A stretch of 19,090 nt of DNA from positions 1 through 19,090 of the forward strand of contig JAFNXT010000338.1 of the NCBI GenBank assembly GCA_017378975.1, given 5' to 3'. Positions 1 through 13,707 of this stretch are shown here, piece by piece. Below the pieces are notes generated by a model, which saw nothing but the letters and a program-made list of their open reading frames with translations, was not told the origin of the DNA and did no database searches. Made by a program: the position numbers and the translations under genes. Position 1 is the stretch's first letter, and the number at the start of each line of letters is the position of its first letter. Origin of the DNA: Oscillospiraceae bacterium (GTDB taxonomy: Bacteria > Bacillota > Clostridia > Oscillospirales > Oscillospiraceae).

Positions 1-38
1 AATGAGGGGGGCAAGTTCGCCGCCCTTGGGGCGGCGAC

Positions 39-58
39 GGCGAGGGCGTGCCCTCGCC
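39..58. repeat. Palindromic repeat, copy 1
   Basis: GGCGAGGGCGTGCCCTCGCC forms a 9-bp perfect stem around GT and is followed directly by CTACA and GATGG. A second copy with the same architecture, and the same CTAC after the right arm, lies at 13662-13681. Compensatory changes in the stem (AGGGC/GCCCT here, GAGGC/GCCTC there) keep the pairing, which suggests a maintained hairpin. Confidence 0.7.
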
Positions 59-164
59 CTACAGATGGGACGGCTACGGATGGGGCGGACCGTGACGGCA
101 AGGGGCGGCGGGGTGACCGGCTGGGCCGGTCATGCACCCTTCCGGCCCGCCTTGGGGCGGTCCA

Positions 165-182
165 CCTTCCCTCGAGGGAAGG
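165..182. repeat. Perfect 18-bp palindrome
   Basis: CCTTCCCTCGAGGGAAGG is its own reverse complement. It sits between two CCGCC-TTGGGG-CGG hairpins and about 55 bp upstream of the TIR gene promoter. It could be part of the composite intergenic repeat or an operator-like site; nothing in the sequence decides between these. Confidence 0.5.
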
Positions 183-236
183 CATGCGCCGCCTTTGGGG
201 CGGCGACAGCAGGTCAGTTCGGGGAGCAACTTGACC

Positions 237-265
237 TTGACGTGGTCTGTGGCAAATGGTATACT
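237..265 (+). promoter_or_regulatory. Promoter of first TIR gene
   Basis: TTGACG (237-242) and TATACT (260-265) are separated by exactly 17 bp, with a TGG extended -10 just before TATACT. Transcription would begin near 272, about 20 nt before the ribosome binding site. This also argues against translation starting at the in-frame ATG at 256, which overlaps the -10. The same arrangement (TTGACG, 17 bp, ATGGTATACTGG) precedes the second TIR gene. Confidence 0.85.
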
Positions 266-294
266 GGAGGAAATACGGAAAAAGAGGTAGTCCC

Positions 295-1119
295 ATGGCG
301 GAAAACATCAAACCTCTGCCTCCTTACAAGGGGCAGGAGAACTATGTCTTCATCAGCTACTCCCACCGCAACGCTCCCGCGGTCCTGCAGGTGGTCCAGC
401 AGCTCCAAAAGGACGGTCATCGGGTCTGGTATGACGAGGGCATCGATCCGGGCACCGAGTGGGACGAGAACATCGCCCAGCACGTGAAGGACTGTCATTG
501 CTTCGTGGCCTTCCTTTCGAAAGAATATCTCCAGTCCACCAACTGCAAGGACGAGCTCAACTACGCCCGGGAGCTGGATAAGCCCCGTCTTCTGGTGTAT
601 CTGGAGGACGTGGAGCTCCCTGTGGGCATGCAGATGCGGCTGAGCCGGTTGCAGGCGGTACATAAGTACAAATACACCGATGCCGCAGGCTTCTACGAGA
701 AGCTTTATGACTTCTCTCCGCTGGAAGAATGCAAGGGCCCCGTGGCCGTGGCTCCCAAGGTCTCCACGCCCCCTCCGGTGGATCCTCCGGAGGAACCTCC
801 CGTAAAGACGGACAGCGACACCGGCACGGACGATTCCCTCCGGGACGGATTCCTCCTGTTCGGCGGTATGCTCCTTGGGATCGCGGCGATCGTGGCCGGC
901 GTCGTGATGTGGTTCCTGGATGTACCTTTCCTGATCTGGCTGGCGGCCACCGTGATCCCCGGTGCCATCGCCGGCGGCATGATGGGCAAGGTCATCGAGG
1001 ATGGCAAATGGCCCTGGATCGTATGCGCGATCCTTGCACCGGCACTTTCCGGCCTGCTGATCCTCCTGATCTGGCTGGTCATGCTGTTCATTGGCTTCAT
1101 CGGAGGCCTGTTCTCCTGA
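295..1119 (+). CDS. TIR-domain membrane protein (paralogue 1)
   Basis: A 274-residue protein with an N-terminal TIR domain and a membrane-embedded C-terminus. The TIR fold (about residues 14-145) shows the first-strand/box-1 motif YVFISYSH (17-24), a BB-loop-like YDEGIDPGTEW (46-56) and NCKDELNYA with Glu87 at the position of the NAD-hydrolysing glutamate of bacterial and plant TIRs. A Pro/Asp-rich linker (155-183) leads to three hydrophobic segments at about 185-206, 209-230 and 240-272. The start is ATG 295, with GAGGT 6 nt upstream and the promoter at 237-265; an upstream in-frame ATG at 256 lies inside the -10. It converges on a close paralogue across a shared terminator. Known TIR proteins of this kind either hydrolyse NAD or make cyclic ADP-ribose-type signals during defence. 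Activity here is inferred from the conserved Glu; membrane tethering is inferred from hydrophobicity. Confidence 0.92.
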   Translation: MAENIKPLPPYKGQENYVFISYSHRNAPAVLQVVQQLQKDGHRVWYDEGIDPGTEWDENIAQHVKDCHCFVAFLSKEYLQSTNCKDELNYARELDKPRLLVYLEDVELPVGMQMRLSRLQAVHKYKYTDAAGFYEKLYDFSPLEECKGPVAVAPKVSTPPPVDPPEEPPVKTDSDTGTDDSLRDGFLLFGGMLLGIAAIVAGVVMWFLDVPFLIWLAATVIPGAIAGGMMGKVIEDGKWPWIVCAILAPALSGLLILLIWLVMLFIGFIGGLFS

Positions 1120-1126
1120 ATACACG

Positions 1127-1157
1127 AAAAGCTCCGCCCTTCTTGGGCGGAGCTTTC
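1127..1157. terminator. Bidirectional terminator between convergent TIR genes
   Basis: A 12-bp perfect stem, AAAGCTCCGCCC (1128-1139) with GGGCGGAGCTTT (1145-1156), closes a 5-nt loop. Short T runs flank it in both directions (TTT on +, TTTT on -). It is the only sequence of note in the 46 bp between the stop codons of the two convergent TIR genes and would serve both. Confidence 0.85.
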
Positions 1158-1165
1158 ATACGTTT

Positions 1166-2122
1166 TCACATCATCAGATAAGTGAGCGTGACGTTCAGGA
1201 GCATGGGTCCCAATTGCAGAGGCAGGAACGCCGCGAACAGGAGCGCACCACGCCAAGTATGGCCCTTGCCGTTGCCCTTCATGATCAGCGCACCGCTGGG
1301 GATGCCCATGAGGGCCGTCATGACCACACCGACCAGGAACAGCTCCGGATCTTCGAAGATCAGGAAGGCCGCCGACGTCACCACACAGGCCGCCAACGCC
1401 AGACCCAACAGCATCAAAAACAGGTTCTGCCTGGGGGCCTTCTTCACCTTGGCCGCCGGCTTGGGCTGAGGGAACACCGGAGCGGTCTGCTTGGGCTGAG
1501 GGAACACCGGAGCCGCCGGCTTGGGCTGAGGGAACACCGGAGCCGCCGGCTTGGGCTGGGGAGATACCGGAGCCACCGGCCGCTGGGGCGGCACGGGCTT
1601 CGGCTGTGCCGGTACGGAAGCCACCGGGACCTTGGGCCGCTCCGGCTCCACCGCAGGCTTGGGCTCCTCCGCTGTGACCGCCTTGCAGTCGCTCAGCGAG
1701 GAGAACTCATACAGCTTCTCGAAGAAGACCTTCCGGTCCGCATATTTGTACTGATGTACCGCCTGCAACCGTCCCAGCCGCATCCGCATACCACCGGGCA
1801 GCTCCACATCCTCCAGATACACCAGAAGACGGGGCTTGTCCAGCTCCCGGGCGTAGTTGAGCTCGTCCTTACAATTCATGGACTGCAGATATTCCTTCGA
1901 CAGGAACGCCACGAAACAACCGCAATGCTCCACGTGATCGGCGATGTTCTCGTCCCACTCGGTGCCGGGGTCGATGCCCTCGTCATACCAGATCCGGTAG
2001 CCGTCCTTCTGCATCCGGTCCAGCACGCTGAGCACCTTGGCACTGTTCCTGTGGGAATAACTGACGAAGATATAGGGTTCCTCCCCCTTATAGGGCGGAA
2101 GGATCTTCCGTTCATCCGTCAT
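1166..2122 (-). CDS. TIR-domain membrane protein with proline-rich repeat linker (paralogue 2)
   Basis: A 318-residue paralogue of the TIR protein at 295-1119. By hand alignment the first 148 residues align without gaps with about 110 identities. It keeps YIFVSYSH (17-24), YDEGIDPGTEW (46-56) and the putative catalytic Glu87 in NCKDEL. After residue 150 the proteins diverge. This one has a Pro/Lys-rich stalk (152-230) containing a tandem 10-residue repeat QPKPAAPVFP, then hydrophobic segments at about 233-256, 260-281 and 290-316. I choose ATG at 2122: GAGGTG sits 6 nt upstream and a TTGACG-17-TATACT promoter lies just beyond. A GTG at 2131 is in frame but overlaps the ribosome binding site. 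The promoter -35 overlaps the stop codon of the kinase gene behind it. The role is predicted to be a membrane-anchored TIR effector or signal producer; the long stalk would hold the TIR domain away from the membrane. Confidence 0.92.
   Translation of the reverse strand: MTDERKILPPYKGEEPYIFVSYSHRNSAKVLSVLDRMQKDGYRIWYDEGIDPGTEWDENIADHVEHCGCFVAFLSKEYLQSMNCKDELNYARELDKPRLLVYLEDVELPGGMRMRLGRLQAVHQYKYADRKVFFEKLYEFSSLSDCKAVTAEEPKPAVEPERPKVPVASVPAQPKPVPPQRPVAPVSPQPKPAAPVFPQPKPAAPVFPQPKQTAPVFPQPKPAAKVKKAPRQNLFLMLLGLALAACVVTSAAFLIFEDPELFLVGVVMTALMGIPSGALIMKGNGKGHTWRGALLFAAFLPLQLGPMLLNVTLTYLMM
1461..1580. repeat. 30-bp tandem repeat (four units) in TIR stalk
   Basis: Four head-to-tail 30-bp units start at 1461, 1491, 1521 and 1551. 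Each begins TTGGGCTG; the first three continue AGGGAACACCGGAGC and the last is diverged (GGGAGATACCGG). They encode the QPKPAAPVFP repeat of the minus-strand TIR protein. Because the period is a multiple of three, gain or loss of a unit would lengthen or shorten the stalk without breaking the frame. Confidence 0.9.
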
Positions 2123-2154
2123 GGTCTGCACCTCACTTAGTCATTATCTATACC

Positions 2155-2183
2155 AGTATACCATCCCGGGGCGCACCCGTCAA
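2155..2183 (-). promoter_or_regulatory. Promoter of second TIR gene
   Basis: Read on the minus strand, TTGACG (2183-2178) and TATACT (2160-2155) are 17 bp apart, with TGG directly before TATACT. The -35 overlaps the TGA stop of the kinase gene (2182-2180), so this TIR gene has its own promoter even though it lies downstream of the kinase in the same direction. Confidence 0.85.
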
Positions 2184-5100
2184 GTGGCGCGCACCGTTAC
2201 GATCCCCAGCTCTTCCGCTTCCCGGAGGACCGATCCGTCCGGCAGGGTCTGGCATACCAGCGTCCGGCACACGTCACCCAACGCCGCGGTCTCTTCCGCG
2301 AACCGTCTGTACCGCGCCCGGTCCGGGGTCCCGCCGACACAGCACACCGGCAAGGGCCGGAAGCCGTCCGTCAGCATCAGGGCGCCCCGGTGACAGGAGA
2401 TGTCCGAGAACGCTCCCCGGTCCTGGGCCCCATACCAGCACCGCACCGTCAACAGCCCATCAGGGTCGGTGAGGAGCTTCCGGATCCGGTGGCTGGTATA
2501 GGTGAAGGACACCTTCTCCCCGTCCCGGCGGAGCATGGTGATGAGCTTGGCTTGGTACAACGCTTCCAGCACCGTCCACATGGCTTCGTCCACACCGGTG
2601 AGCCTTTCCACCGTCAGTCCGTCACAGCGGACCCACAGCAGGCCCTCCGGATCCATGGACACCTCCAGCCGGTCGGGATCTGCCAGCAGATACCACCGGG
2701 AGAACAGCTTCTCCAGCACCGGCTCCAGCTCCCAACGGGTGAAGATCTCGATCTGGCAGGTATCCGACGCACAGCCGTGGAGGCCGGAGCCTTCACCGGT
2801 CACGCCCAGCTCCGCCAGCCGACGCAGGAGCCGCTCCGCACCGGGGCTACCGTTGCCGGGGAAATAGAAGCGGATGGCCCGCTCCTCTTCGCCACGCCGG
2901 GCCGATCCCATCAGGCCTTCTCTGTGGGCATCCTCTCCCAGACGGTGGCAGAGCCTGCTCCAGCAGTCACCGCCTGCCCGGGTGCCGATCTGCCACAGGG
3001 CTTCCAGTTCTTCTTCGTATTCCGGCAGTTCTCCGGCGCCCCAGCGGATCCCACACAGGGCCTCCAGCTCCTCCACCCGGAGCCGTGCCCGGGTCCGCAG
3101 ATACCGCAGGCGGTCACATCCGTGATGCTCCGTGAACCGATGCTCCGTCCGGTCGAATCGGAACAGGCCAAGCTTCTGCCGGACCAGCTCCAAAAACCGT
3201 GTCTGTTTGTCAGGGGCACGGAACAGCGCCGTGTCGCCATCGAAGAGGGTGCCGGGATCCAACGCTTCCAGAAGTGCTTCCCCGTCCCCGTCACAGCGGA
3301 GGTACCGGGTCTTCACCGGGCAGTCCAGCAACGCCTGCCGGGCCTGCGATATCCGGTCCGCGGTGGCACCCACCAGAAGCTCCGTTTCGCTTCGGATGTG
3401 GCTCCGTTCCAGATAGTCCGCGATGGTCCGCAGCTTGGTCTTCAGGGCCTGTCCGTCGCTGTCCGCCCCCCACAGATACAGATAGCTGATCTTCCGGGGC
3501 CGCAGGACCGTGGCAGACACCACATTGGAAAGCATGGCGATCCCATCGCCCTCCTCCAGCGCCATGGCCAGCGCCGGTTGGGGCTCATTGGTCAGGATGA
3601 AGGGGATCTTCTCCACCAGCGTAAGATCGTACGATTTATAATCCCGTTCCAAAGTGCTTTCGATCAGGGGGAAGAAGCGGACCCGGAGCCATTCCAGCCG
3701 CTGACGCACCTCCGCCAGCTCCGGGGACCCCTCCGCCTCGATGGACTGCTCCAGATCCCGGGCGTACCGCCCATAGGTCCGGCAACGGTCCACGTTCCCT
3801 TCCAGGATCCGCTTCAGGCATTGATGATACCGTGCGTAGGCCAGGCGGACGGCTTCGGACTTGCCCTCGGCGATCCGTCGCAGAGCCTGCAGGTCCGCGC
3901 TCCGCAGGGGCTGGCTATGCCGGACCTCCTCCGCGGCGGTCCGGAAGGTCCGGTACAGCTCCACGGACATCCGGTCCAGCGGATCGAGCCCACTCAGATC
4001 CTCTACCGATGCCAAAGGCACGCCCTTCAGCGGCATCTGCTCGGTGCTGGGGAGAAGACAGGGATGGGTCTTCCGTTCCTCATCCTTCACCCGTCCCCGT
4101 ACGACACAGCCCTGATGGTCCATCGCTCCGGACTCATCCGTTGGCAACTGCCATCCGTCGGTGACCTTCTCCAGGACCCAGCGGCGGTGCTCCAGCATCA
4201 CCAGTCGGCGAAGGGTCTGCTCATCCCGGAGCTTCCGCTCCACCAGCGCCGCCTGTTCCCGGAGGTCCTCCAGCCGAAGGCCCAGGCCGTACAGCTTATA
4301 GGGGATCGAGAGCACATAGGAAACGGAGGAATCATGATAATAAGGTTTTGCGAACCGTTTCCGCTCCGCCGTGATGTCCGCATCGTCATCGCACCAGATC
4401 AGATGGGTGTTGAATGCCATCCGCTCCAGCTCAGGGGAGATGCCCTCGGCACCCAGTTCCCGGTCCACATACACCGGGATACCGCCCTCGCAGGTCTCCT
4501 GATCTCCGGACTGGACCACATAAGCCACCGGACATCCGGCACCCAGCTCTAAAAACGCCGTTGCCGCCTCACGGTCCAGCCGGTCATCGCCCAGAGCGAT
4601 GAAGATGTAGTGGGGCCGCACCTGATCCAGGAGCCGCCGGGCCACGCTGTGCTGTCGCCGGAGGTCTCCCACACGGAAGGACTTCTCCGGGGTCCGGGTA
4701 TCCAGCCGGGCGAAGCAAGCGCCTTCCCGTTCTCCGTCCACCTCCACGAACTGCTTCAGCGCCGGGCGGTAATGCAGATAGACCTCTTTGTCCAGCGCCA
4801 TATCCCGTGACACCGCGGTGATGTGCAGGGTATGGTCCAGAAGCTGGCCGGTCTGCAGGCACAGGTCCATGAATTTCTGACCGTAGGTGCCTGCGCCTAC
4901 CGTCAGCACCCGGAGGTCTTCTCCTGACTCCATGGGCACCGAATACAGAGGCACCCGATACAGCAGATCCTGGAGCACGGCGGTGGGGTCCGGACGGCCT
5001 TCGGTGTCCCGGTCCAGGATCTGGAGCCTGCGCTCCAGCGGCAGAGCCTCCCGGAAGATGTCAGGCAACAGATAGGCCTGTGCCGTCTTCAGATCCCGGA

Positions 5101-6088
5101 TCAGCTCCTCACAGCAGATATAGCGGTTCCTCACGCCGGGGGCCAGCGTCCGGCGCAGGATCCCCGTCAGGATATAGCGGACATTGGCGCTGGAATTAGT
5201 CCGGGAGGACCGGATCAGACGGGACCCCTCCAGAAGCTCCTCCAGCCGGTCGAAATACCGGTCCTCATACAGCCCCTCCGGCACCTGCTCATGGACCACC
5301 ACTGCATAGAACAGCATGGCCCCGATCGAATAGATATCCGACCGGTTCCCGGCGTCTCCCCGTGCCACCTCCGGCGCCCGGAAGCCCCGGGTACCGGCGG
5401 TCCGCATGACGTTGCCGCGGACCGGACGCACGGAGTTCAGATCGTACAGGGAGATGTTGCCGGTGTTGATGTTCATCTCACTGTCATAGGCCACCAAAAA
5501 GTTGGAGGGCTTGATATCCAGATGGAGCATCTCCAGCTCATGGAACACCCGGACACAATCGGACAGCGTGATCAGGGTGTTGAGGATGTTGTAGAGCTTG
5601 TGCTCCGGCAGCTCCTCCGGGGCGTTGCGGACCTGACGCAGATAATCGTCGAAATCCTGCCCCACCATATCACCGGCGGTCCAAACATAGACACTGCCCG
5701 GCTGTCCGTCCACGGAGCGGCCGAAATATAGCTGGTAGGATGGGATGTAGTTGTTCAGGATCGCCCCCCGTTCTCCCCGGATCCGCACCCGGTCCAGCGT
5801 ATCATAGGTCTGTGTCAGCTCTGTGCAAAGCTCTGTGAACAATGTCACGGAGGCAGGATCTTCGGGCAGGAGCTGGTATCCCTCCGTCCGACGCAGGGAC
5901 AGTATCTCATCGGGGAGCAGGGGATAGAATTCCTTCAGCTTTCCCCGCTGGCCCATGGCCTGAGCGTCATAGCAGATACTGGAGCTCCCTTCACCCACCA
6001 CGCCCAGGATCGTGAAGCTGACCTCCTGTCGTCCTGCCCGGCGGCACAGCCGGATCTGCTCTCCTTCGGGGATATAGGTCCTGTCCAT
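2180..6088 (-). CDS. Multidomain Hanks-type kinase / Rossmann (TrkA-N-like) / RyR protein with CARF/Card1-like C-terminus
   Basis: A 1302-residue fusion. Residues about 20-340 form a Ser/Thr-type kinase: glycine loop GEGSSS (32-37), likely ATP lysine K52 in KLKEFYP, catalytic loop HLDIKPSNFL (189-198; HRD is HLD), metal-binding DLN (216-218, for DFG), APE (238-240) and D251 in DIYSIG. Residues 390-560 look like a Rossmann fold (VLTVGAGTYG at 394-403, IFIALGDDRLD at 495-505). Residues 575-720 match the RyR-domain pattern: H634..W637...K641...GW646, then K673THPCLLP. Residues 825-960 may be CARF-like. Residues 1165-1302 resemble the Card1/DUF1887 wHTH-nuclease tail, but the nuclease acidic and ECK-type residues are absent. 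The start is ATG 6088, with AAGGAG 8 nt upstream. Transcription is probably from an extended -10 at 6123-6128 and/or readthrough from the upstream gene. Predicted role: ligand-sensing signalling hub. Kinase and RyR calls are firm by motif; the C-terminal call is tentative. Confidence 0.85.
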   Translation of the reverse strand: MDRTYIPEGEQIRLCRRAGRQEVSFTILGVVGEGSSSICYDAQAMGQRGKLKEFYPLLPDEILSLRRTEGYQLLPEDPASVTLFTELCTELTQTYDTLDRVRIRGERGAILNNYIPSYQLYFGRSVDGQPGSVYVWTAGDMVGQDFDDYLRQVRNAPEELPEHKLYNILNTLITLSDCVRVFHELEMLHLDIKPSNFLVAYDSEMNINTGNISLYDLNSVRPVRGNVMRTAGTRGFRAPEVARGDAGNRSDIYSIGAMLFYAVVVHEQVPEGLYEDRYFDRLEELLEGSRLIRSSRTNSSANVRYILTGILRRTLAPGVRNRYICCEELIRDLKTAQAYLLPDIFREALPLERRLQILDRDTEGRPDPTAVLQDLLYRVPLYSVPMESGEDLRVLTVGAGTYGQKFMDLCLQTGQLLDHTLHITAVSRDMALDKEVYLHYRPALKQFVEVDGEREGACFARLDTRTPEKSFRVGDLRRQHSVARRLLDQVRPHYIFIALGDDRLDREAATAFLELGAGCPVAYVVQSGDQETCEGGIPVYVDRELGAEGISPELERMAFNTHLIWCDDDADITAERKRFAKPYYHDSSVSYVLSIPYKLYGLGLRLEDLREQAALVERKLRDEQTLRRLVMLEHRRWVLEKVTDGWQLPTDESGAMDHQGCVVRGRVKDEERKTHPCLLPSTEQMPLKGVPLASVEDLSGLDPLDRMSVELYRTFRTAAEEVRHSQPLRSADLQALRRIAEGKSEAVRLAYARYHQCLKRILEGNVDRCRTYGRYARDLEQSIEAEGSPELAEVRQRLEWLRVRFFPLIESTLERDYKSYDLTLVEKIPFILTNEPQPALAMALEEGDGIAMLSNVVSATVLRPRKISYLYLWGADSDGQALKTKLRTIADYLERSHIRSETELLVGATADRISQARQALLDCPVKTRYLRCDGDGEALLEALDPGTLFDGDTALFRAPDKQTRFLELVRQKLGLFRFDRTEHRFTEHHGCDRLRYLRTRARLRVEELEALCGIRWGAGELPEYEEELEALWQIGTRAGGDCWSRLCHRLGEDAHREGLMGSARRGEEERAIRFYFPGNGSPGAERLLRRLAELGVTGEGSGLHGCASDTCQIEIFTRWELEPVLEKLFSRWYLLADPDRLEVSMDPEGLLWVRCDGLTVERLTGVDEAMWTVLEALYQAKLITMLRRDGEKVSFTYTSHRIRKLLTDPDGLLTVRCWYGAQDRGAFSDISCHRGALMLTDGFRPLPVCCVGGTPDRARYRRFAEETAALGDVCRTLVCQTLPDGSVLREAEELGIVTVRAT

Positions 6089-6096
6089 ACGGCACG

Positions 6097-6102
6097 CTCC
6101 TT
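6097..6102 (-). promoter_or_regulatory. Ribosome binding site fixing the kinase start
   Basis: AAGGAG lies 8 nt before the ATG at 6088 on the minus strand, and this is the first in-frame start after the intergenic hairpin. Confidence 0.8.
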
Positions 6103-6122
6103 ACTTCTCATTTCTTGTGGAT

Positions 6123-6131
6123 AGTATATCA
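6123..6131 (-). promoter_or_regulatory. Possible extended -10 for kinase gene
   Basis: On the minus strand TGATATACT gives TG-n-TATACT about 35 nt before the kinase start codon. The -35 position at 17 bp (CCCGGA) does not match consensus, so this would depend on the extended -10. It abuts a strong hairpin (6130-6160), so expression may be a mix of weak local initiation and readthrough. Confidence 0.45.
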
Positions 6132-6160
6132 CCCCACCCCCGTGGTCCGGGGATGGGGTG
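6130..6160 (-). terminator. Strong GC hairpin between the 754-residue and kinase genes
   Basis: The minus-strand transcript would fold CACCCCATCCCCG with CGGGGGTGGGGTG around a 5-nt loop, 13 pairs including one G-U. On the plus strand the same position is a C-A mismatch, so the hairpin fits minus-strand RNA best. It lies 12 nt after the stop of the upstream gene. No U-run follows, so it may be an attenuator, RNA processing site or mRNA 3'-end stabiliser rather than a full terminator. Confidence 0.55.
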
Positions 6161-6172
6161 GTGTTTCCCACA

Positions 6173-8437
6173 TCAGCGTCTGCCCAGGACCAGACGCAGA
6201 TATACGACGATGACGGCGAACATATCGAACAGGTTCTTTTCGCTGATCGGCTGGAACCGGCAGGCCTTCAACTGGGAATCGATGCTGGTCCGAAGCTCTT
6301 CCAGCAGCTCCGGCATACTCATCCGCTCTCCGGCGGCGTCCTCCATGAACGCCTGGAAGGCGATCGCCACCAACTGGGTCCGGCCCACCCGGTGGGTCCG
6401 CTGGAGCTTCTTTTTCTCTTCCTCCAGTGCCGTGGACAGGAAGGGCAGGGCCGGAGGATCCTTCTCACTCCAGCTATCCAGTCCCTGTACCAGCGCCTGC
6501 ACACCGGTCAGCCCCTGGGCCAACAGCGCCGGAGCCACCGATCCGCAGGACTTCGCCACCGCATCGGCGCACAGGGGGGCGAGCTTGGCCCACTTCGGTT
6601 CGGTCTGCGCCAGTTGCTCCAGCACGGGCCCGATCCGCTCCAGCGTCCGCTCGCCGTCCTCTTTCGCCTCCGCCGCCGTGGCCATCGCCTGCTGATATGC
6701 CGTCAGCAACTGTCTGGCCGCGATGCGGGTCCGGATGACGGCGGTGTCCGGGATCTTCACATCGTCCGGACCAAGGCTCCGGCGTGCCCGGACCATCTCC
6801 TTCTGATAGCTTTCGAAGGCATCTTCCAGAAGTCCGCGCACCTGTGCGATCCGCTTCTCCACTTCGCCGGACCACTTCCGGTGATCTCTCAGGGCATCAT
6901 CCACGGTACGGACCAAGGTGCCGTACTCCGTGTCCTCAGACCGGGCCCACGGACCTTCCAGCTTCTGTCTGACCGACAGGAGGGTGGTATCCTTCGGCAC
7001 GGTCTGGAGGAGGACATCCACCGCCCGCAGGCAAACAGCGGGCCATATGACCCGGGATGCCATCCCAGAGGCCCTCCGGTCCTCCAGCAGGGCCGCCAGC
7101 AGGAGGTGGGACTCCGGGATCTCCGGACCCAGCCACCGCTCCATCTGCTCCATCAACTGCCGCAGTCCGGCATCCACACAGATCTCGTGGTCATCCAGAT
7201 ACCGGCCGATGCCGCCGCTGAGCACTTCCATCTCCAGCATCATCCGGTCCGCGATCACATCCGTACAGGGCAGACTGTCCAGGATCTTCACGAACTCCGT
7301 CAGGCTGGTGCGGCCTTCCCATGCCACGGCGATCCGGGATCGGTTCCCGGCATCCACGGGGATATCATAATGATCGCAGATGAAGGTGGCCAGCGCCTCC
7401 GGCTCCAGATCCCAGACCCCAGCCATCAGGCGGTCCCAATAATCGGCGCTGACCTTCAGCAGGGGATCGGCGACGGTGCCGCCCCGTGCTTCCGCCAGCT
7501 TCAGACACTGTTCGATCATGGCCTCCGCCTGCCTGTACCGCTCATACCGGGACAGGCCATCCTTGCGCAGGAAATAGATGAAGATCGTTTCCGCGAAATT
7601 CTTGGGGTTGATCCCCTCGCCCACAGGCTCTGCCTCGGAGCCGTCGGAGATGTTCCTGCCGGCAAGATACCGCAGGATATTGTTCTGATAATGGTCCTCG
7701 AACAGACGGACCGTCACATCCCGGTCCCGGTCCGGGACCGTCTCCTTGCCGGGGACCGAAGCCGTCATGCCGAAGGCGAAGGCGAACCGGTACAGATCCA
7801 TCTTGGCCTTGCCCTGCTGACGGAACCGGCCCTTGGCCAGATCGTCGGCACAGATCAGAAGCTCGTACTTCCGCCGGTCATCCTTGGACAGCTTCCCGGA
7901 CAGTACATCGAAGATATCGTCCCGGAGGATATGGGCCAGTTGCTCCGCCGTGGCGTTGGCCGGGACAGACTCTCCGTACATCCGCTGGGCCAGCCGCCGC
8001 ACCGTTACATTGTTTTTGGGTCCGTACCGCAGGAAATGCCGCAGGATCGTCAGGCGGACGGAGAAGTCCTGCAGATCCCGGTCGCCCAGCGTCCGGACCG
8101 TGTTCTCCATGTGGTCCGCCGGGGTGGGGAACTTCCGCCAGATCTGGTCCAGCTCCAGGATCAGACGCCGGATCAGTACGTCCCGTTCCGGTGCCTGAGC
8201 TACCTTCTCCTTCAACTGTCCCGGTGTGCAGTCATCGTCACAGTCGATCCCGCATCCACGCAGATGGTCCACCAGATCCCTGCGCAAGGTCGGATAAGCG
8301 GAGGTGTTCTTCTGCTGTTCCAGGAAACGGAGCTCCCGGAGCAGATCCTCCCGGCTGTAAGCATAGAGGAACTTGGAGAAGCTCCTGCCCATGAGTGCTC
8401 CGTAATATTCGCTGAATCTCTTCTTTTCAGGCAACAT
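6173..8437 (-). CDS. Unrecognised 754-residue, mostly helical protein upstream of the kinase
   Basis: I do not recognise this family. The protein is charged and looks predominantly alpha-helical, with no signal peptide. Blocks that look conserved (dense in turn, Gly and aromatic residues) are LLICADDLAKGRFRQQGKAK (193-212), DLYRFAFAFGMT (214-225), LFEDHYQNNILRYL (245-258) and GEGINPKNFAETIFIYF (273-289). A helical, possibly coiled-coil region fills about 520-700. The extreme C-terminus (LFDMFAVIVVYLRLVLGRR) is hydrophobic with a basic end and could be a membrane-associating helix. The start is ATG 8437 with AAAGGGG 9 nt upstream and a TTGACG-18-TATGAT promoter. It precedes the kinase gene in the same direction, 84 bp apart across a hairpin, and shares promoter style with both TIR genes, so I infer it belongs to the same system. 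It could be a partner, scaffold or regulator of the kinase. Confidence 0.8.
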   Translation of the reverse strand: MLPEKKRFSEYYGALMGRSFSKFLYAYSREDLLRELRFLEQQKNTSAYPTLRRDLVDHLRGCGIDCDDDCTPGQLKEKVAQAPERDVLIRRLILELDQIWRKFPTPADHMENTVRTLGDRDLQDFSVRLTILRHFLRYGPKNNVTVRRLAQRMYGESVPANATAEQLAHILRDDIFDVLSGKLSKDDRRKYELLICADDLAKGRFRQQGKAKMDLYRFAFAFGMTASVPGKETVPDRDRDVTVRLFEDHYQNNILRYLAGRNISDGSEAEPVGEGINPKNFAETIFIYFLRKDGLSRYERYRQAEAMIEQCLKLAEARGGTVADPLLKVSADYWDRLMAGVWDLEPEALATFICDHYDIPVDAGNRSRIAVAWEGRTSLTEFVKILDSLPCTDVIADRMMLEMEVLSGGIGRYLDDHEICVDAGLRQLMEQMERWLGPEIPESHLLLAALLEDRRASGMASRVIWPAVCLRAVDVLLQTVPKDTTLLSVRQKLEGPWARSEDTEYGTLVRTVDDALRDHRKWSGEVEKRIAQVRGLLEDAFESYQKEMVRARRSLGPDDVKIPDTAVIRTRIAARQLLTAYQQAMATAAEAKEDGERTLERIGPVLEQLAQTEPKWAKLAPLCADAVAKSCGSVAPALLAQGLTGVQALVQGLDSWSEKDPPALPFLSTALEEEKKKLQRTHRVGRTQLVAIAFQAFMEDAAGERMSMPELLEELRTSIDSQLKACRFQPISEKNLFDMFAVIVVYLRLVLGRR

Positions 8438-8471
8438 CCGTCCCAGCCCCTTTCTGTGGGTCTTTTCCTAT

Positions 8472-8501
8472 ATCATACCATCATCCGACAGCTCCCGTCA
8501 A
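8472..8501 (-). promoter_or_regulatory. Promoter of the 754-residue gene
   Basis: On the minus strand TTGACG (8501-8496) and TATGAT (8477-8472) are separated by 18 bp, with the same ATGG before the -10 as at the two TIR promoters. Transcription would start about 8465, leaving a short leader. Confidence 0.75.
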
Positions 8502-8616
8502 CTGTCCAGTCCGTGATCTGGAGGATCTTGTAGCATCTGGTCGTATCACGGTCAGGACCGATCGGAAGGCGGGGCTGGAAGTTGATTACAGTGTGGTTAC
8601 AAGTGAAACACCACTA

Positions 8617-8645
8617 TTGACTACGGGTTTCGTTGGGTTTACAAT
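8617..8645 (+). promoter_or_regulatory. Promoter of the Ig-like surface protein gene
   Basis: TTGACT (8617-8622), a 17-bp spacer and TACAAT (8640-8645) precede AAGGAGGGG (8666-8674) and the ATG at 8682. It is divergent from the promoter at 8472-8501. About 115 bp of AT-richer sequence between them holds no gene and has room for an operator. Confidence 0.75.
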
Positions 8646-8681
8646 GGATGCATCCGATCGAATCCAAGGAGGGGACTGAGG

Positions 8682-11426
8682 ATGAAGAGACTGTTATGTT
8701 TGCTTCTCGTATCGTGTCTTTCTTTTGCTATATTGTCCGGTGTCGTGTCTGCCAGAGAGATGGCTGTGTTGGAATTGGTGCCGGAGCAGACGGTGACCTT
8801 CACGGTGACCAAGGAGGAACCGGTGGCGGAGTATGGCTTCACTGCCACGGAGACCGGTGTCTATGTGCTTTATGACGTGGATGGCGGACATCAGACCACC
8901 GAGATCTCTGTGGAGCGGGTGGATCTGGAGCGGCAGACTGAGGTGGTCGCACAGGGGGCCGGCCGGGTGGTGTTCTCTGCCGTGGCCGGGGAAAGCTACA
9001 GGTTCACTATCCAATGCTCCTTCAAGGAAGCGGCCATGGAGTTCGAGTTCATGCTGTCCAAGGCTGTGGAGCCCCAGTCCCTGACGGTCAGTGGCAGTCC
9101 GCTGGAGGAGGGCTTCGTGGGAGCGGAAGGGTCCCTTCGGCTGGCGTACAGTCCTGCCAATGCGGCCTCTTCGGTCCAGTGGACCTCCACCGATCCCAAC
9201 GTGGTGACGGTGGAGGGGGATGCCAACGGTGCTACCTTCCGGTTCGTGGGCGCAGGCTCCGCCGAGGTGGTGGGCATTTCCGCCAACGGACTGGAGGTCC
9301 GGCATCCGGTGACGGTGTTGGCTCTGGACAAACTTGCGCTGGATGGGACCGTGTCCCACACGATCCGTGCCAATGGCGGTCTGTACGCTGAGTCGGAGCA
9401 TGATCTGTGCTTCATCCCCGAAAAGACCGGCACCTATGTGCTGTCCGTCAGCTATGACACCTCCGTGGAGCAGTACCACGGTCTGCGGATGTCCACGGGC
9501 TCCGGCGAGGGTTCCGTCCGTGGGGAGAAGGTCCTGCGGTTCCACGGTGAGGCCGGTCAGCATCACCACATCCATGTGGAATTCTGGGGCGCTTATGAAA
9601 AAGATGTGACTTATTCCTTCCGGCTCACCGCCGGTGTCCCGGCGGAGCAGATCCGTCTGGAGCCCGATGTGACCGCCGGGTACGCCGGGACCGATCTGGG
9701 CGTGGAAGTGATCTGGCTGCCGGAGAGCAGTCTGCCGGAGAGCCTGACCTGGTCCGTTTCCGATGAGGCGGTGGTGAAGGTCCGGGAGTCCTCCATGGAG
9801 TTCGCTATCGTGGATCTGATCGCTCCCGGCACTGCCACCGTGACGGCGACCACTGCCGATGGCAAGTCTGCCAGCTTCCAGATCCAGGTCTATGCGCCGC
9901 TGGCGCTGATCCCCATGGAGCAGGATGTGGCCACGCCGGTGACCTTGCTGGGGGACAGCTCGGTGGAGGTCTCCTTCACCCCCACTCAGACCGGTCACTA
10001 TCGGTTCACCTCCAGCGTTCCGGAGCTGTCTGCCAATCTGTACGCCGAAAGCGTCAGTGATGCCGGTGCGGTGCTGTATCATCTGGAGGCCGGTGTCACT
10101 TACTACGGTACCGTGGACAACCGGACATCTCAGACCGTCAGCGGTGAGCTGTACATCACTTGGGACCAGGTGCTTCTGCCGGTGGAGATGAAGATCACGA
10201 AGATGCCGGACAATACCACCTATCTGAAGGATATGCTGAAGGATATGTGGACCTATCAGCTTCTGGCAGGTCTGCGGATGGAAGTGGTCTGGTCCGACGG
10301 GACCACGACCCAATGGAGCTTCGACGAGGAAGGTCCCTATGTGGGTACCGAGTTCCTCTCCTGGGAGATCCGGGACCAGAAGGAGCTGGTGCTGGAGTGC
10401 CACGGTATCACCGCTTCCGTCCCGCTGACGGTGCTGGATAAGAAGATCACCGGGATCACGCTGGTGGACCCCGCGCCTTTGAAAGTGGTGGAACGGTCCT
10501 GCGGTATGGATATGGGGGATGGGGTATGGTACTATTCTCCTTACCTGTATGAGATGCGGTATGTGAGGATCAGCTTCAGCGACGGCAGTACCGTGATCGC
10601 TCTGCCGGAGGATCAGATCTATGGCATCTTCGTGGAATGTGAAGACAGTCAGGATCAGGAGCCCTGGACGCTGGACAAGAAGGGCTATGTGCGCTATACC
10701 TATGATGATCTCTCCGTGCAGATGGAGGTCCAGGTGGTCAAGAGCACCGTGGTGAAGCTGGAGCTGGTGGAGCTGCCGGTGGATACCATCGTGATCGGAG
10801 ACCCCCGGTTCTTCGCCGGCAGTGGGCCTTATTACTTTGCGCCCGTGGATCTGCGGGATCTGCTGGCCGGTATGGTGCTGAAGATCGGCTATCAGGACGG
10901 TACTGAGCGGATCGTGGGTCTGGAGCAGATCCAATGGCAGACTGTGGGCGGTATGGAGTACCCCTGTATCGATGGGTATCCTCTGGGTGCCTTCGGTGAG
11001 CTGATGATGAGCAACGAGATGATCACCGGTCCCTGTGACCGTGAGGGCCTGATCGAGTACATGGGCCAGAGCGTCAGCTATACGATCCATCTGGTGGAGA
11101 AGCCGTCGGACGATCCCACCGATCCTACGGATCCTACGGATCCCACGGTGACGGATCCGACTCAGACGGAGCCGACGGTGACGGAGCCCTCCACGGAGGG
11201 GACGGAGCCTTCTGTGGCACCTACGGAGCCCGGCGTGTCCGAGCCCACGAAGCCCTCCGGAACGGAAGGGACTTCCGGGACCTCTGAGGCTACGGAGCCC
11301 ACGGGCACCGAGCCGCCGAAGGATCCGGCTGACGGGAAGACCGGCATCGTGATCGGTGTGGTCGTGGCGCTGATCGTGGCGGCCGCGGCGGCGCTGGTGG
11401 TGCCGAAGCTGAAGAAGAAAATGTGA
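8682..11426 (+). CDS. Secreted Ig-like-domain surface protein, single C-terminal TM anchor
   Basis: A 914-residue exported protein. It has a Sec signal peptide (MKR, a hydrophobic core through residue 22, likely cleavage after VVSA). About residues 30-500 alternate beta-rich ligand-binding-like modules (each with a Y-x-F-T/G-x-Y pattern, as in TGVYVLYD, TGTYVLSV, TGHYRFTS) with two Big_2-type Ig-like domains. The first of these carries VQWTSTDPNVVTVEG and the second LTWSVSDEAVVKV. Residues about 500-800 hold three Ig-like repeats of the 'GLRMEVVWSDGTT / VRISFSDGST / MVLKIGYQDGTE' type. A Thr/Pro/Glu-rich stalk with DPT and TEP repeats follows, then one TM helix (GIVIGVVVALIVAAAAALVV) and a KLKKKM cytoplasmic tail. 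There is no LPXTG motif. It is likely displayed on the cell surface for adhesion or glycan binding. It is transcribed divergently from the kinase/TIR block, so a link to that block is possible but unsupported. Confidence 0.85.
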   Translation: MKRLLCLLLVSCLSFAILSGVVSAREMAVLELVPEQTVTFTVTKEEPVAEYGFTATETGVYVLYDVDGGHQTTEISVERVDLERQTEVVAQGAGRVVFSAVAGESYRFTIQCSFKEAAMEFEFMLSKAVEPQSLTVSGSPLEEGFVGAEGSLRLAYSPANAASSVQWTSTDPNVVTVEGDANGATFRFVGAGSAEVVGISANGLEVRHPVTVLALDKLALDGTVSHTIRANGGLYAESEHDLCFIPEKTGTYVLSVSYDTSVEQYHGLRMSTGSGEGSVRGEKVLRFHGEAGQHHHIHVEFWGAYEKDVTYSFRLTAGVPAEQIRLEPDVTAGYAGTDLGVEVIWLPESSLPESLTWSVSDEAVVKVRESSMEFAIVDLIAPGTATVTATTADGKSASFQIQVYAPLALIPMEQDVATPVTLLGDSSVEVSFTPTQTGHYRFTSSVPELSANLYAESVSDAGAVLYHLEAGVTYYGTVDNRTSQTVSGELYITWDQVLLPVEMKITKMPDNTTYLKDMLKDMWTYQLLAGLRMEVVWSDGTTTQWSFDEEGPYVGTEFLSWEIRDQKELVLECHGITASVPLTVLDKKITGITLVDPAPLKVVERSCGMDMGDGVWYYSPYLYEMRYVRISFSDGSTVIALPEDQIYGIFVECEDSQDQEPWTLDKKGYVRYTYDDLSVQMEVQVVKSTVVKLELVELPVDTIVIGDPRFFAGSGPYYFAPVDLRDLLAGMVLKIGYQDGTERIVGLEQIQWQTVGGMEYPCIDGYPLGAFGELMMSNEMITGPCDREGLIEYMGQSVSYTIHLVEKPSDDPTDPTDPTDPTVTDPTQTEPTVTEPSTEGTEPSVAPTEPGVSEPTKPSGTEGTSGTSEATEPTGTEPPKDPADGKTGIVIGVVVALIVAAAAALVVPKLKKKM
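11111..11160. repeat. DPT-coding 9-bp tandem repeat
   Basis: Several near-identical GATCC-Y-AC-S units encode Asp-Pro-Thr in the surface-protein stalk just before its TM helix. Such tracts commonly vary in copy number. Confidence 0.7.
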
Positions 11427-11584: not shown

Positions 11585-11623
11585 ATGATAGAAATATTAT
11601 GAGATAATGGCAGGTATTTGCAT

Positions 11624-13618
11624 ATGGCCACGAAAAAGCAAGAGCAATATGGTAATTCCAGTATCTCCATGCTCAAGGATGAGGAACGGGTGCGGAAGCG
11701 TCCGGCGGTCATTTTTGGCTCTGATGATCTGGAAGGATGCAAGCATGCGGTCTTCGAGATCCTTTCCAATGCCATCGACGAGGCCCGTGAAGGGCATGGC
11801 GATACCATCATCGTCACCCGGTATGAAGACCTGAGCGTGGAGATCGAGGACTTCGGCCGGGGCTGTCCTGTGGACTACAATGAGAAGGAAAAGCGCTACA
11901 ACTGGGAGCTGGTGTTCTGTGAGATGTATGCCGGCGGCAAATATGGGGAGAATGGAGAGAACTACGAGTACTCTCTGGGCCTGAACGGTCTGGGCTCCTG
12001 CGCCACCCAGTATGCTTCGGAATACTTCGATGTGGTGGTGCGCCGTGACGGCTTCCGGTATGATCTGCATTTCGAGAAGGGCCGCAACAAGGGCGGTCTG
12101 AAGAAGGAGCCCACGGACCGGCGGAAGACCGGTTCCTGGTTCCGGTGGCGGCCGGATAAGGAGGTCTTCACGGACATCGACATCCCGGTGGAGTACTACC
12201 GGGACGTGTTGCGGCGGCAGGCGGTGGTGAACAAGGGCATCACCTTCAGGTTCCGCAATCAGGTGGGCAAAAAGTTCGAGGAAGAGGAGTTTTGCTACGC
12301 CGGTGGCATCAAGCAGTACATCGAGGAGCTGGTGGGGGACGATGCCTTCACCATGCCCGTGTACTGGGAGACCGAACGCCGGGGCCGGGACGCAGAGAAC
12401 CGGCCGGAGATGAAGCTGAAGATCACCGCTTCCTTCTGCTTCTCCAAGAAGGTCAGTCATGTGGAATACTATCACAACTCCTCCTGGCTGGAGTACGGCG
12501 GCAGTCCGGATCGGGCGGTGCGGCTGGCATTCGCCGCCGCCTTCGACAAGTATCTTCGGGACAGCAACAAGTACACCAAGAGCGAGAGCAAGATCCTGTA
12601 TCAGGATATCCAGGATTGTCTGGTGCTGGTGACCAACTGCTTCTCCACCATCGGTTGTTTCGAGAACCAGACCAAGAAGTCTGTCAACTCTAAGTTCACG
12701 CAGGAGGCCATGACGGCCTTCTTCAAGGAGCAGCTCCAGGTCTGGGCCATCGAGAACAAGCAGGAGGCAGACCGGGCGGCAGATCAGATCCTGCTGAACA
12801 AGCGGGCCAGAGAATCCGCCGAGAAGACCAAGGCCAACGTCAAGAAGAAGCTTTCCGGCTCCATCGACATCGCCAACCGGGTCCAGAAGTTCGTGGACTG
12901 CCGGAGCCGGGATGCCGCTGTCCGGGAGCTGTATATCGTGGAGGGCGACTCCGCGTTGGGTTCTGTCAAGCTCAGCCGGGATGCGGAGTTCCAAGGGATC
13001 ATGCCGGTCCGCGGTAAGATCCTGAACTGTCTCAAAGCCGATTACACCAAGATCTTCGCGTCCCCCATCATCACCGATCTCATGAAGGTGCTGGGCTGTG
13101 GTGTGGAGGTACAGGGGAAGAAGGCCAAGGAGCTGTCTTCCTTCGATATCAGCAACCTGCGCTGGAGCAAGGTGGTGATCTGTACCGATGCCGACTACGA
13201 CGGCTTCCAGATCCGGACCCTGATCCTGACCATGATCTACCGGCTGTGCCCGACGCTGATCCGGGATGGGTATGTGTATATCGCGGAATCACCCCTGTTC
13301 GAGATCACCTGCAAGGAAAAGAGCGGGGAGAAGACATGGTTTGCCTACAATGAGCCGGAAAAGGCCAGGATCCTCCGTGAGCTGGAGGGCAAGAAGGTCA
13401 AGATCCAGCGGTCCAAGGGTCTTGGTGAGAACGATCCGGAGATGATGTGGATGACCACCATGAATCCGGAGACCCGGCGGCTGATCAAGGTCATGCCGGA
13501 GGACGCGGCACGGACGGCCTATTATTTCGATGTGTTGCTGGGCGATGCCCTCAATGAGCGGAAGAGCTTCATCGCGGAGAACGGCGCGAAGTATCTGGAG
13601 CTGGCGGACATCTCGTAA
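11624..13618 (+). CDS. parE: Type IIA DNA topoisomerase, GyrB/ParE-type ATPase subunit
   Basis: A 664-residue B subunit of a topoisomerase IV/gyrase-type enzyme, which uses ATP to pass one DNA duplex through another. The GHKL ATPase domain shows VRKRPAVIFGSDD, EILSNAIDEA (ATP/Mg-binding Asn) and EDFGRGCPV; the ATP lid reads LGLNGLG where GyrB/ParE usually has GGLHGVG. The transducer region keeps ENQTKKSV (QTK loop). The Toprim domain has IVEGDSALGS (E440) and CTDADYDG (D522, D524, D526), so metal binding is intact. QRSKGLGENDPEMMWMTTM follows, the usual GyrB/ParE tail. Its length suits a ParE without the GyrB insert of proteobacteria. I prefer ATG 11624 (GGCAGG upstream) over an in-frame TTG at 11618. 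Gene name by position with subunit A; whether it is called ParE or a separate clostridial paralogue is unsettled. Confidence 0.9.
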   Translation: MATKKQEQYGNSSISMLKDEERVRKRPAVIFGSDDLEGCKHAVFEILSNAIDEAREGHGDTIIVTRYEDLSVEIEDFGRGCPVDYNEKEKRYNWELVFCEMYAGGKYGENGENYEYSLGLNGLGSCATQYASEYFDVVVRRDGFRYDLHFEKGRNKGGLKKEPTDRRKTGSWFRWRPDKEVFTDIDIPVEYYRDVLRRQAVVNKGITFRFRNQVGKKFEEEEFCYAGGIKQYIEELVGDDAFTMPVYWETERRGRDAENRPEMKLKITASFCFSKKVSHVEYYHNSSWLEYGGSPDRAVRLAFAAAFDKYLRDSNKYTKSESKILYQDIQDCLVLVTNCFSTIGCFENQTKKSVNSKFTQEAMTAFFKEQLQVWAIENKQEADRAADQILLNKRARESAEKTKANVKKKLSGSIDIANRVQKFVDCRSRDAAVRELYIVEGDSALGSVKLSRDAEFQGIMPVRGKILNCLKADYTKIFASPIITDLMKVLGCGVEVQGKKAKELSSFDISNLRWSKVVICTDADYDGFQIRTLILTMIYRLCPTLIRDGYVYIAESPLFEITCKEKSGEKTWFAYNEPEKARILRELEGKKVKIQRSKGLGENDPEMMWMTTMNPETRRLIKVMPEDAARTAYYFDVLLGDALNERKSFIAENGAKYLELADIS

Positions 13619-13637
13619 AAATGAAGGAACTGAGGAT

Positions 13638-13660
13638 GTGATCATGCATGGCATGATCAC
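13638..13660. repeat. 10-bp perfect hairpin in the topoisomerase intergenic gap
   Basis: GTGATCATGC (13638-13647) pairs completely with GCATGATCAC (13651-13660) across ATG. It stands directly next to the palindrome at 13662-13681, giving two tandem hairpins in the 89-bp gap. There is no U-run, so it is not a typical terminator. Confidence 0.7.
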
Positions 13661-13661
13661 C

Positions 13662-13681
13662 GGCGGAGGCATGCCTCCGCC
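13662..13681. repeat. Palindromic repeat, copy 2
   Basis: GGCGGAGGCATGCCTCCGCC is a perfect 20-bp palindrome followed by CTACG and then ATAGATG. It has the same architecture and trailing CTAC as the copy at 39-58. It sits 26 nt before the subunit A start codon, so it would be transcribed in the operon mRNA and could affect processing or translation between the two subunits. Confidence 0.75.
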
Positions 13682-13707
13682 CTACGATAGATGTTAAGGA
13701 GTGCGAT

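Follow-up and report, generated by a model that had tools for sequence, protein, structure and literature searches.

A contig of 19,090 nucleotides from an Oscillospiraceae bacterium (JAFNXT010000338.1, assembly GCA_017378975.1; this whole stretch is hereafter the window) carries between positions 237 and 8501 four closely packed genes, which encode two proteins with TIR domains (TIR1 and TIR2), a fusion protein of 1302 amino acids (aa) joining kinase, RCK, RyR and CARF/Card1-like parts, and a protein of 754 aa. All four are confirmed as real and well named; from left to right TIR1 on the plus strand is followed by TIR2, the fusion and the 754-aa gene on the minus strand, and then by the gene of a Big_2 surface protein. 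An earlier reading of this DNA from its letters only (the sequence-only reading) had proposed a four-gene signalling or defence module, and its TIR, kinase, RyR and CARF/Card1-like genes were confirmed as described by domain analysis. The features of the locus, in window coordinates, are:

237..265, plus strand: promoter of TIR1, TTGACG-17-TATACT with extended -10
298..1119, plus strand: TIR1 gene, with the TIR domain at residues 17-124 and C-terminal hydrophobic segments at ~181-273
1128..1156, no strand assigned: terminator-like hairpin of 12 pairs between the convergent TIR genes, from a sequence scan
1166..2131, minus strand: TIR2 gene, with TIR domain, proline-rich linker and C-terminal hydrophobic segments at ~234-316
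2155..2183, minus strand: TIR2 promoter, located where the kinase-fusion gene has its 3′ end
2180..6088, minus strand: kinase-RCK-RyR-CARF-Card1-like fusion, 1302 aa
5054..6088, minus strand: Hanks-type kinase domain, residues 1-345 (K52, HLDIKPSN 189-196, D216-x-N218, E240)
4400..4936, minus strand: TrkA/KtrA (RCK)-like Rossmann domain, residues ~385-563, with a GxGxxG-type motif
3914..4273, minus strand: RyR domain, residues 606-725, in which H634, W637, H675 and D705 match the ligand-contacting residues of phage RyDEP
2183..3580, minus strand: residues 837-1302, with CARF and a nuclease fold of Card1/Can2 type whose motif is destroyed
6173..8437, minus strand: 754-aa all-helical protein, from a family whose genes in other genomes immediately precede the fusion, or PP2C and the fusion
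8472..8501, minus strand: promoter of the 754-aa gene, TTGACG-18-TATGAT

The start of TIR1 at 298 is preferred over that at 256, since the -10 box ends at 265. Promoters of TIR1 and TIR2 have identical hexamers and spacing, and this pattern occurs four times in the genome, twice in the present locus. The hairpin at 1128..1156 is weak evidence alone, as terminator-like sites within 1-9000 number two against 4.1 expected from shuffles. The genome itself (G000) is assembled into 359 contigs with a total of 2.02 Mb and is 75.7% complete.

The N-terminal part of the fusion matches Pkinase (E 6.6e-12) and has all Hanks-type motifs intact, including catalytic Lys (K52), HxDxxxxN (D191 and N196), D-x-N/G (D216) and APE (E240). 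Fold searches returned TrkA/KtrA K+ channel regulators as the closest folds of the Rossmann part and, with the structure model, the whole Can2/Card1 fold for residues 837-1302, which are similar to Can2 and Card1 bound to cyclic tetra-adenylate (cA4). The Card1-type nuclease motif D, E, K (D...E-x-K) is intact in 37 of 44 aligned rows, whereas the window copy has A, C and V at these positions, so that its output would run via the kinase. Nuclease parts are repeatedly lost or replaced among relatives, some of which (~915-950 aa) carry RyR at the C terminus and lack PF09002 while keeping kinase, Rossmann part and inner RyR. No membrane segments were found in the window fusion; relatives with N-terminal hydrophobic segments exist. 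Elsewhere in this genome lies the gene of another Rossmann-RyR-nuclease protein, 1018 aa long and lacking a kinase (L059:6909-9962, G000:C193).

The RyR domain of the fusion aligns with PF02026 at hhalign probability 85.7% (E 5.5e-6). According to a preprint (PMC13232231, bioRxiv, May 2026), the cyclic ADP-ribose (cADPR) isomers 2′cADPR and 3′cADPR are messengers made by TIR proteins and bound by phage RyR domains; the phage protein RyDEP cleaves both, six of its eight tested homologues bind them, and the ligand is contacted by H75, W78, H100 and D117, of which H75 and D117 are catalytic. In our alignment these positions correspond to H634, W637, H675 and D705 of the window protein, kept in 43, 44, 44 and 44 of 44 rows, respectively, the mapping being made by motif order; the fusion RyR is longer between these residues (H-to-D spacing 71 vs 42). 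In standalone or C-terminal RyRs H, W and D are kept in all ten examined, the H100 position is T in nine and N in one, and the example from L011 has exactly the RyDEP spacing (3 and 42). These patterns of residue conservation suggest a binding role for RyR in the fusion, and a binding or hydrolysing one for the standalone form. The supposition of the sequence-only reading that the large protein might sense a nucleotide thus becomes better founded, as far as kept ligand residues, a TrkA-like Rossmann part and a CARF fold can predict it. One more standalone RyR gene lies on another contig of the same genome (L087:3434-3910, G000:C250).

The 754-aa protein, modelled as all helical, is named by no family of Pfam, NCBIfam, PADLOC or PHROGs, and five of its relatives (L006, L007, L009, L019 and L020) are likewise unnamed by Pfam; a family profile from which the window protein was left out still matches it at E 4.4e-85. 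Its association with the fusion was counted over 17 genome loci having a kinase-RyR fusion, namely 14 of the 24 in the first locus set together with L054, L075 and L076. Left out were the window, L062/L032/L006 (genome G056, same contig as L010), G564, where 754-family genes stand at contig ends with no readable fusion, and two distant loci of the kinase type in which no 754-family gene could be detected: at L061 an unrelated 552-aa gene occupies its place, at L081 none does. In 16 of these 17 core loci a 754-family gene lies directly upstream on the same strand, with a gap of 3-108 bp to the next gene, while the remaining one (L022) starts at a PP2C gene and is cut by the contig end. PP2C (PF13672) is inserted between the 754 family and the fusion at 11/17 core loci, and at 8/17 the gene after the fusion encodes a standalone RyR, L019 ending with the fusion so that none could show there; L075 has the full set of 754 family, PP2C, fusion, RyR and TIR; no PP2C or vWA was detected among nine window proteins scanned. 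Kinase-less relatives of the first locus set have the 754 family in 0/9 cases, three of them with only 2-3 kb upstream. Distant, partial members (hhalign probabilities 94-95%) adjoin a kinase-NB-ARC-TPR protein (L055) and a kinase-NACHT protein (L056). Thus, 754 family and fusion form a conserved core, and the 754 family looks like a dedicated partner of the present kinase type because of its adjacency to the fusion, its absence from kinase-less relatives and the location of distant members beside kinases. At both distant loci the 754 relatives stand directly upstream of the NLR-like kinase proteins (L055:5636-11019, L056:6652-10933), so that NLR-like proteins may have the 754-type front part in common with the present module.

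In an alignment of TIR1 with the TIR domain of Cat1 (E 6.2e-6), S20, D46, S80 and E86 fall on Cat1 S7, D33, S68 and E74, which line the NADase site according to PMC12162218; Cat1 H8 and N10 are replaced (Y and H), and TIR2 is identical to TIR1 at the four kept positions. Hydrophobic segments follow the TIR domain in both proteins, which are probably membrane-bound enzymes turning NAD into a small alarm molecule. The placement of TIR genes near RyR genes was tallied three times, with counts compiled by hand, fragments in one frame merged and P values assuming uniform placement. In the first locus set, without the window and L030 (not a real relative) and with the TIR of L010 counted though below the Pfam cut-off, a TIR gene is found in the stretch at 6/23 loci vs 0.73 expected (P ~3e-5). 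Samples of the family, order and class gave 5/14 stretches vs 0.21 expected (P ~9e-7), leaving out G796 (no TIR on its RyR contig), G1023 and the partial 754-family genomes G335, G461, G503 and G632. A PF02026 search of 391 class genomes, independent of the profiles built in this work, detected RyR in 27; over the 26 remaining when the own genome is excluded, TIR lies within 10 kb at 9/29 RyR loci vs 0.41 expected (P ~8.5e-11), six genomes (G718, G746, G785, G902, G938 and G1017) being shared with the second tally. In six genomes (G791, G856, G862, G924, G938 and G985) the sole TIR found is the neighbour of RyR. TIR genes are thereby a recurrent, optional partner of the core. The four-gene module of the sequence-only reading accordingly stands as a recurrent module and falls as a fixed set, with TIRs optional and PP2C or standalone RyR often added; the outcome which that reading had named as refuting it, unrelated neighbourhoods with no co-occurrence above chance, was not seen, because 754 family and fusion are adjacent in 16/16 readable loci and TIRs lie near such loci far above uniform placement.

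Two further arrangements touch this linkage. Next to kinase-RyR modules, two loci encode kinase and TIR in one polypeptide (L026:14816-15940, L061:4668-6245), and RyR-TIR pairs without a kinase occur beside membrane-type Rossmann-RyR proteins (L077, L080). The latter belong to a family of ~650-755 aa with N-terminal hydrophobic segments followed by Rossmann and RyR parts (L077:7076-10610, L080:374-4860, L078, L079, L084); a TIR gene is next to them at L077 and L080, with a standalone RyR between at L077. By its predicted architecture this family could be a membrane version of the same receiver.

Distribution of the module is sporadic. Profile search over 101 same-genus genomes gave a full 754-family match in one (the own genome) and one partial match, while among 394 genomes of the order the family is present in six, fully in three; the same-family genome G056 carries a module at L010. 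The GyrB-like gene located beyond the Big_2 gene is conserved in 34 of 41 genomes of the genus, own included, and was used as an anchor: regions with 7.5 to 16 kb upstream were taken from 12 of the 33 other genomes that have an anchor match, and the module is missing in 12/12 of these regions. A relative of the Big_2 gene (43%) is found in the nearest of these 12 regions only.

We therefore consider it probable, if only just, that the locus is a sporadically acquired anti-phage-type signalling module resembling Thoeris with another receiver, in which TIR makes a messenger and the RyR fusion receives it. Infection would trigger the membrane-tethered TIR proteins to convert NAD+ into an ADP-ribose-type messenger, either a cADPR isomer or ADP-ribose (ADPR) itself; its receptor would be the RyR domain, which in the fusion adjoins the NAD/nucleotide-type RCK domain, and binding would switch on the N-terminal kinase, whose first partner might be the 754-aa protein encoded beside it. 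The C-terminal Card1-type nuclease of most aligned relatives may be activated by the same binding, PP2C would reverse phosphorylation, and the standalone RyR protein could mop up or cleave the messenger, whereas the window copy would do its damage through the kinase/754 arm and through depletion of NAD+ by the TIRs. Messenger identity, direction of the signal and kinase target are the weakest steps of this scheme, and binding by the window RyR, the role of the 754-aa protein and the anti-phage purpose are likewise proposals. The sequence-only reading had the large protein controlling the TIRs; a link between them is retained, and the order from TIR as signal maker to fusion as receptor is more likely than the reverse.

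Several observations weigh against this interpretation. No relative was found in viral contigs or phage records, plasmids gave only kinase-domain matches, and PADLOC matches among 113 neighbouring open reading frames were few, at most three per family for the best 25 of 60 families, in what is a weak test with no control; with phage and viral relatives absent and PADLOC neighbours few, a defence role is something we infer. The window protein scores 12.2 bits with PF02026 at a Pfam gathering cut-off of 27.4, its structure model (predicted local distance difference test, pLDDT, 90.8) gave a fold-search list filled by other domains with RyR not listed, and the ligands of a PF02026 domain may also include other adenine nucleotides. 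The window copy combines a dead nuclease with the lack of PP2C and standalone RyR. The P values suppose uniform placement and take no account of the clustering of TIR genes in islands; 20/29 RyR loci have no TIR within 10 kb and 11/17 core loci have none in the available stretch, several contigs being short. With TIR missing near so many loci, the core may function together with a TIR encoded farther away or need none at all.

The strongest alternative reverses the roles: the 754-aa protein and the kinase fusion would sense infection or NAD state and release or phosphorylate TIR killers that deplete NAD+, with RyR and RCK serving as a feedback or safety sensor. The dead nuclease of the window, next to two TIRs which keep their NADase residues, speaks for such a scheme, the single-protein kinase-TIR fusions of L026 and L061 fit it too, and the kinase-NB-ARC-TPR and kinase-NACHT partners of distant 754-family proteins look like direct infection sensors. 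It is nevertheless unlikely, if to be taken seriously, given that RyR adjoins TIR with no such kinase found in the stretch at L077, L080, L093, L094 and L090 (the last three from G791, G856 and G985, respectively), so that the wider pairing is that of RyR with TIR rather than of kinase with TIR, and that RyR domains bind TIR products (PMC13232231). Core and TIR genes might otherwise merely share genomic islands with no common pathway, the TIR pair being a separate system. Own promoters of TIR1 and TIR2 agree with this, as do the core loci lacking TIR and the large, clustered sets that TIR genes can form (for instance, 22 matches in G208); yet single-TIR genomes place that TIR beside the RyR gene, all three TIRs of G785 and all four of G902 lie within ~16 kb of the module, and the biochemical link between RyR and TIR signals (same preprint) is independent of gene positions, which makes mere neighbourhood rather improbable. 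Improbable to a still greater degree is a non-defence phosphorelay responding to stress or to NAD/ion state, where the RCK-like domain would read NAD(H) or ADP/ATP in the manner of KtrA and the kinase with PP2C would set a physiological response: K+ channel regulators as closest folds and the common regulatory pair of kinase and PP2C (the latter in relatives) speak for it, against which stand the very patchy distribution, a toxic-type nuclease repeatedly lost or replaced and the TIR linkage. That CARF is the main receptor, for a cyclic oligoadenylate of CRISPR or CBASS-type source, with RyR secondary, has hardly any likelihood despite the full CARF-nuclease fold similar to cA4-bound Can2 and Card1, because the ~915-950-aa relatives dispense with PF09002 and still keep kinase, Rossmann part and inner RyR.

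Compared with described systems, the signalling module resembles Thoeris in having TIR proteins with predicted NADase-site residues beside a protein whose domain could bind ADPR-type signals. The SIR2-SLOG and TM-Macro receivers of Thoeris (PMC11204291 for part of these types) have no counterpart here; in their place stands a kinase-RCK-RyR-CARF-nuclease fusion, accompanied by a helical partner and often by PP2C. No ThsA-type match was obtained for the 754-aa protein in PADLOC and NCBIfam or for the fusion in NCBIfam and the best 25 of 28 PADLOC families, the newest Thoeris types not being compared, and TIR1 scores 27.9 bits with NCBIfam Thoeris_type3_ThcB4 at a cut-off of 220. The module thus falls outside Thoeris by its receiver and probably works like it. 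RyDEP, a phage PF02026 protein, has the same H, W, H and D ligand residues, but it is an evasion protein, whereas here a host RyR stands in or beside a kinase fusion with TIR genes nearby at part of the loci. Card1/Can2 (PF09002, CARF with PD-(D/E)XK nuclease) share the whole fold of residues 837-1302, which in the window has its motif destroyed and is fused behind kinase-RCK-RyR. Cat1 of type III CRISPR also unites TIR NADase and CARF in one pathway, though within one CARF-TIR protein, while here they are on separate proteins and RyR is added. The Rossmann part has the fold of TrkA/KtrA RCK domains and differs in that the window fusion is without a membrane segment. PADLOC kinase systems (PD-T4-6, MAD6) are similar to the fusion in the kinase only. 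Sets of kinase, PP2C and vWA of the TerY-P type are another point of comparison. Such sets (PMC7159879) have in common with the present loci the Hanks-type kinase and PP2C (11/17); no vWA partner was found in the proteins scanned (nine of the window and those of L006, L007, L009, L019 and L020). Fusions in which a protein kinase precedes a CARF domain were described already in 2014 (PMC4012209), with Zn ribbon, AAA+ ATPase and winged helix-turn-helix and with no RyR or RCK; the text of that paper contains neither 'ryr' nor 'tir'. NCBIfam (June 2026) has no model over cut-off for ten related proteins, and among the papers listed in literature searches none describes this gene composition, a 2025 preprint on systematic discovery of TIR-based systems, which may include RyR receivers, not being covered. 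The module therefore appears to be a hitherto undescribed form of TIR nucleotide signalling, kinase-CARF fusions as such being known.

Bacteria, plants and animals all use TIR signalling, and the mapping of the proteins that receive its messengers is not yet complete. The present findings suggest a new branch of bacterial immune signalling. A broader generalization, to which we would give somewhat less than an even chance, is that bacterial RyR domains are host receivers of TIR-made cADPR isomers and that the module represents one branch of a wide TIR-RyR immune family with interchangeable outputs (kinase with 754-type partner, Card1 nuclease, membrane Rossmann-RyR proteins), in which the standalone RyR would be an off-switch that, like a ring nuclease acting on CRISPR signals, binds or cleaves the messenger, and the whole would be a bacterial immune counterpart of the animal pairing of cADPR with the ryanodine receptor. 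If true, a host RyR with ligand residues and TIR neighbours would suggest the origin of the phage RyR tool, the long-debated link between cADPR and the ryanodine receptor would gain a testable bacterial precedent, and phosphorylation (kinase, PP2C) would be added to nucleotide immune signalling.

Beyond the module, the large Big_2 surface protein (window 8682-11426) has a proline/threonine-rich C-terminal region and is followed by a GyrB-like and GyrA-like pair (window 11618-15954), which remains below the listed NCBIfam gyrase and topoisomerase IV cut-offs, and by a YitT protein, a transglutaminase-fold protein and tRNA-Gly. At other loci, ATPase-type genes with IetA/DolB/TRIP13-like and MAD3/MAD8-like matches lie few kb downstream of modules (L009:17453-20938, L014:14878-15918), and BspA-type leucine-rich repeat proteins occur near the module at L010:4301-7468 and L020:5285-6193, the one of L010 having a weak N-terminal TIR match.

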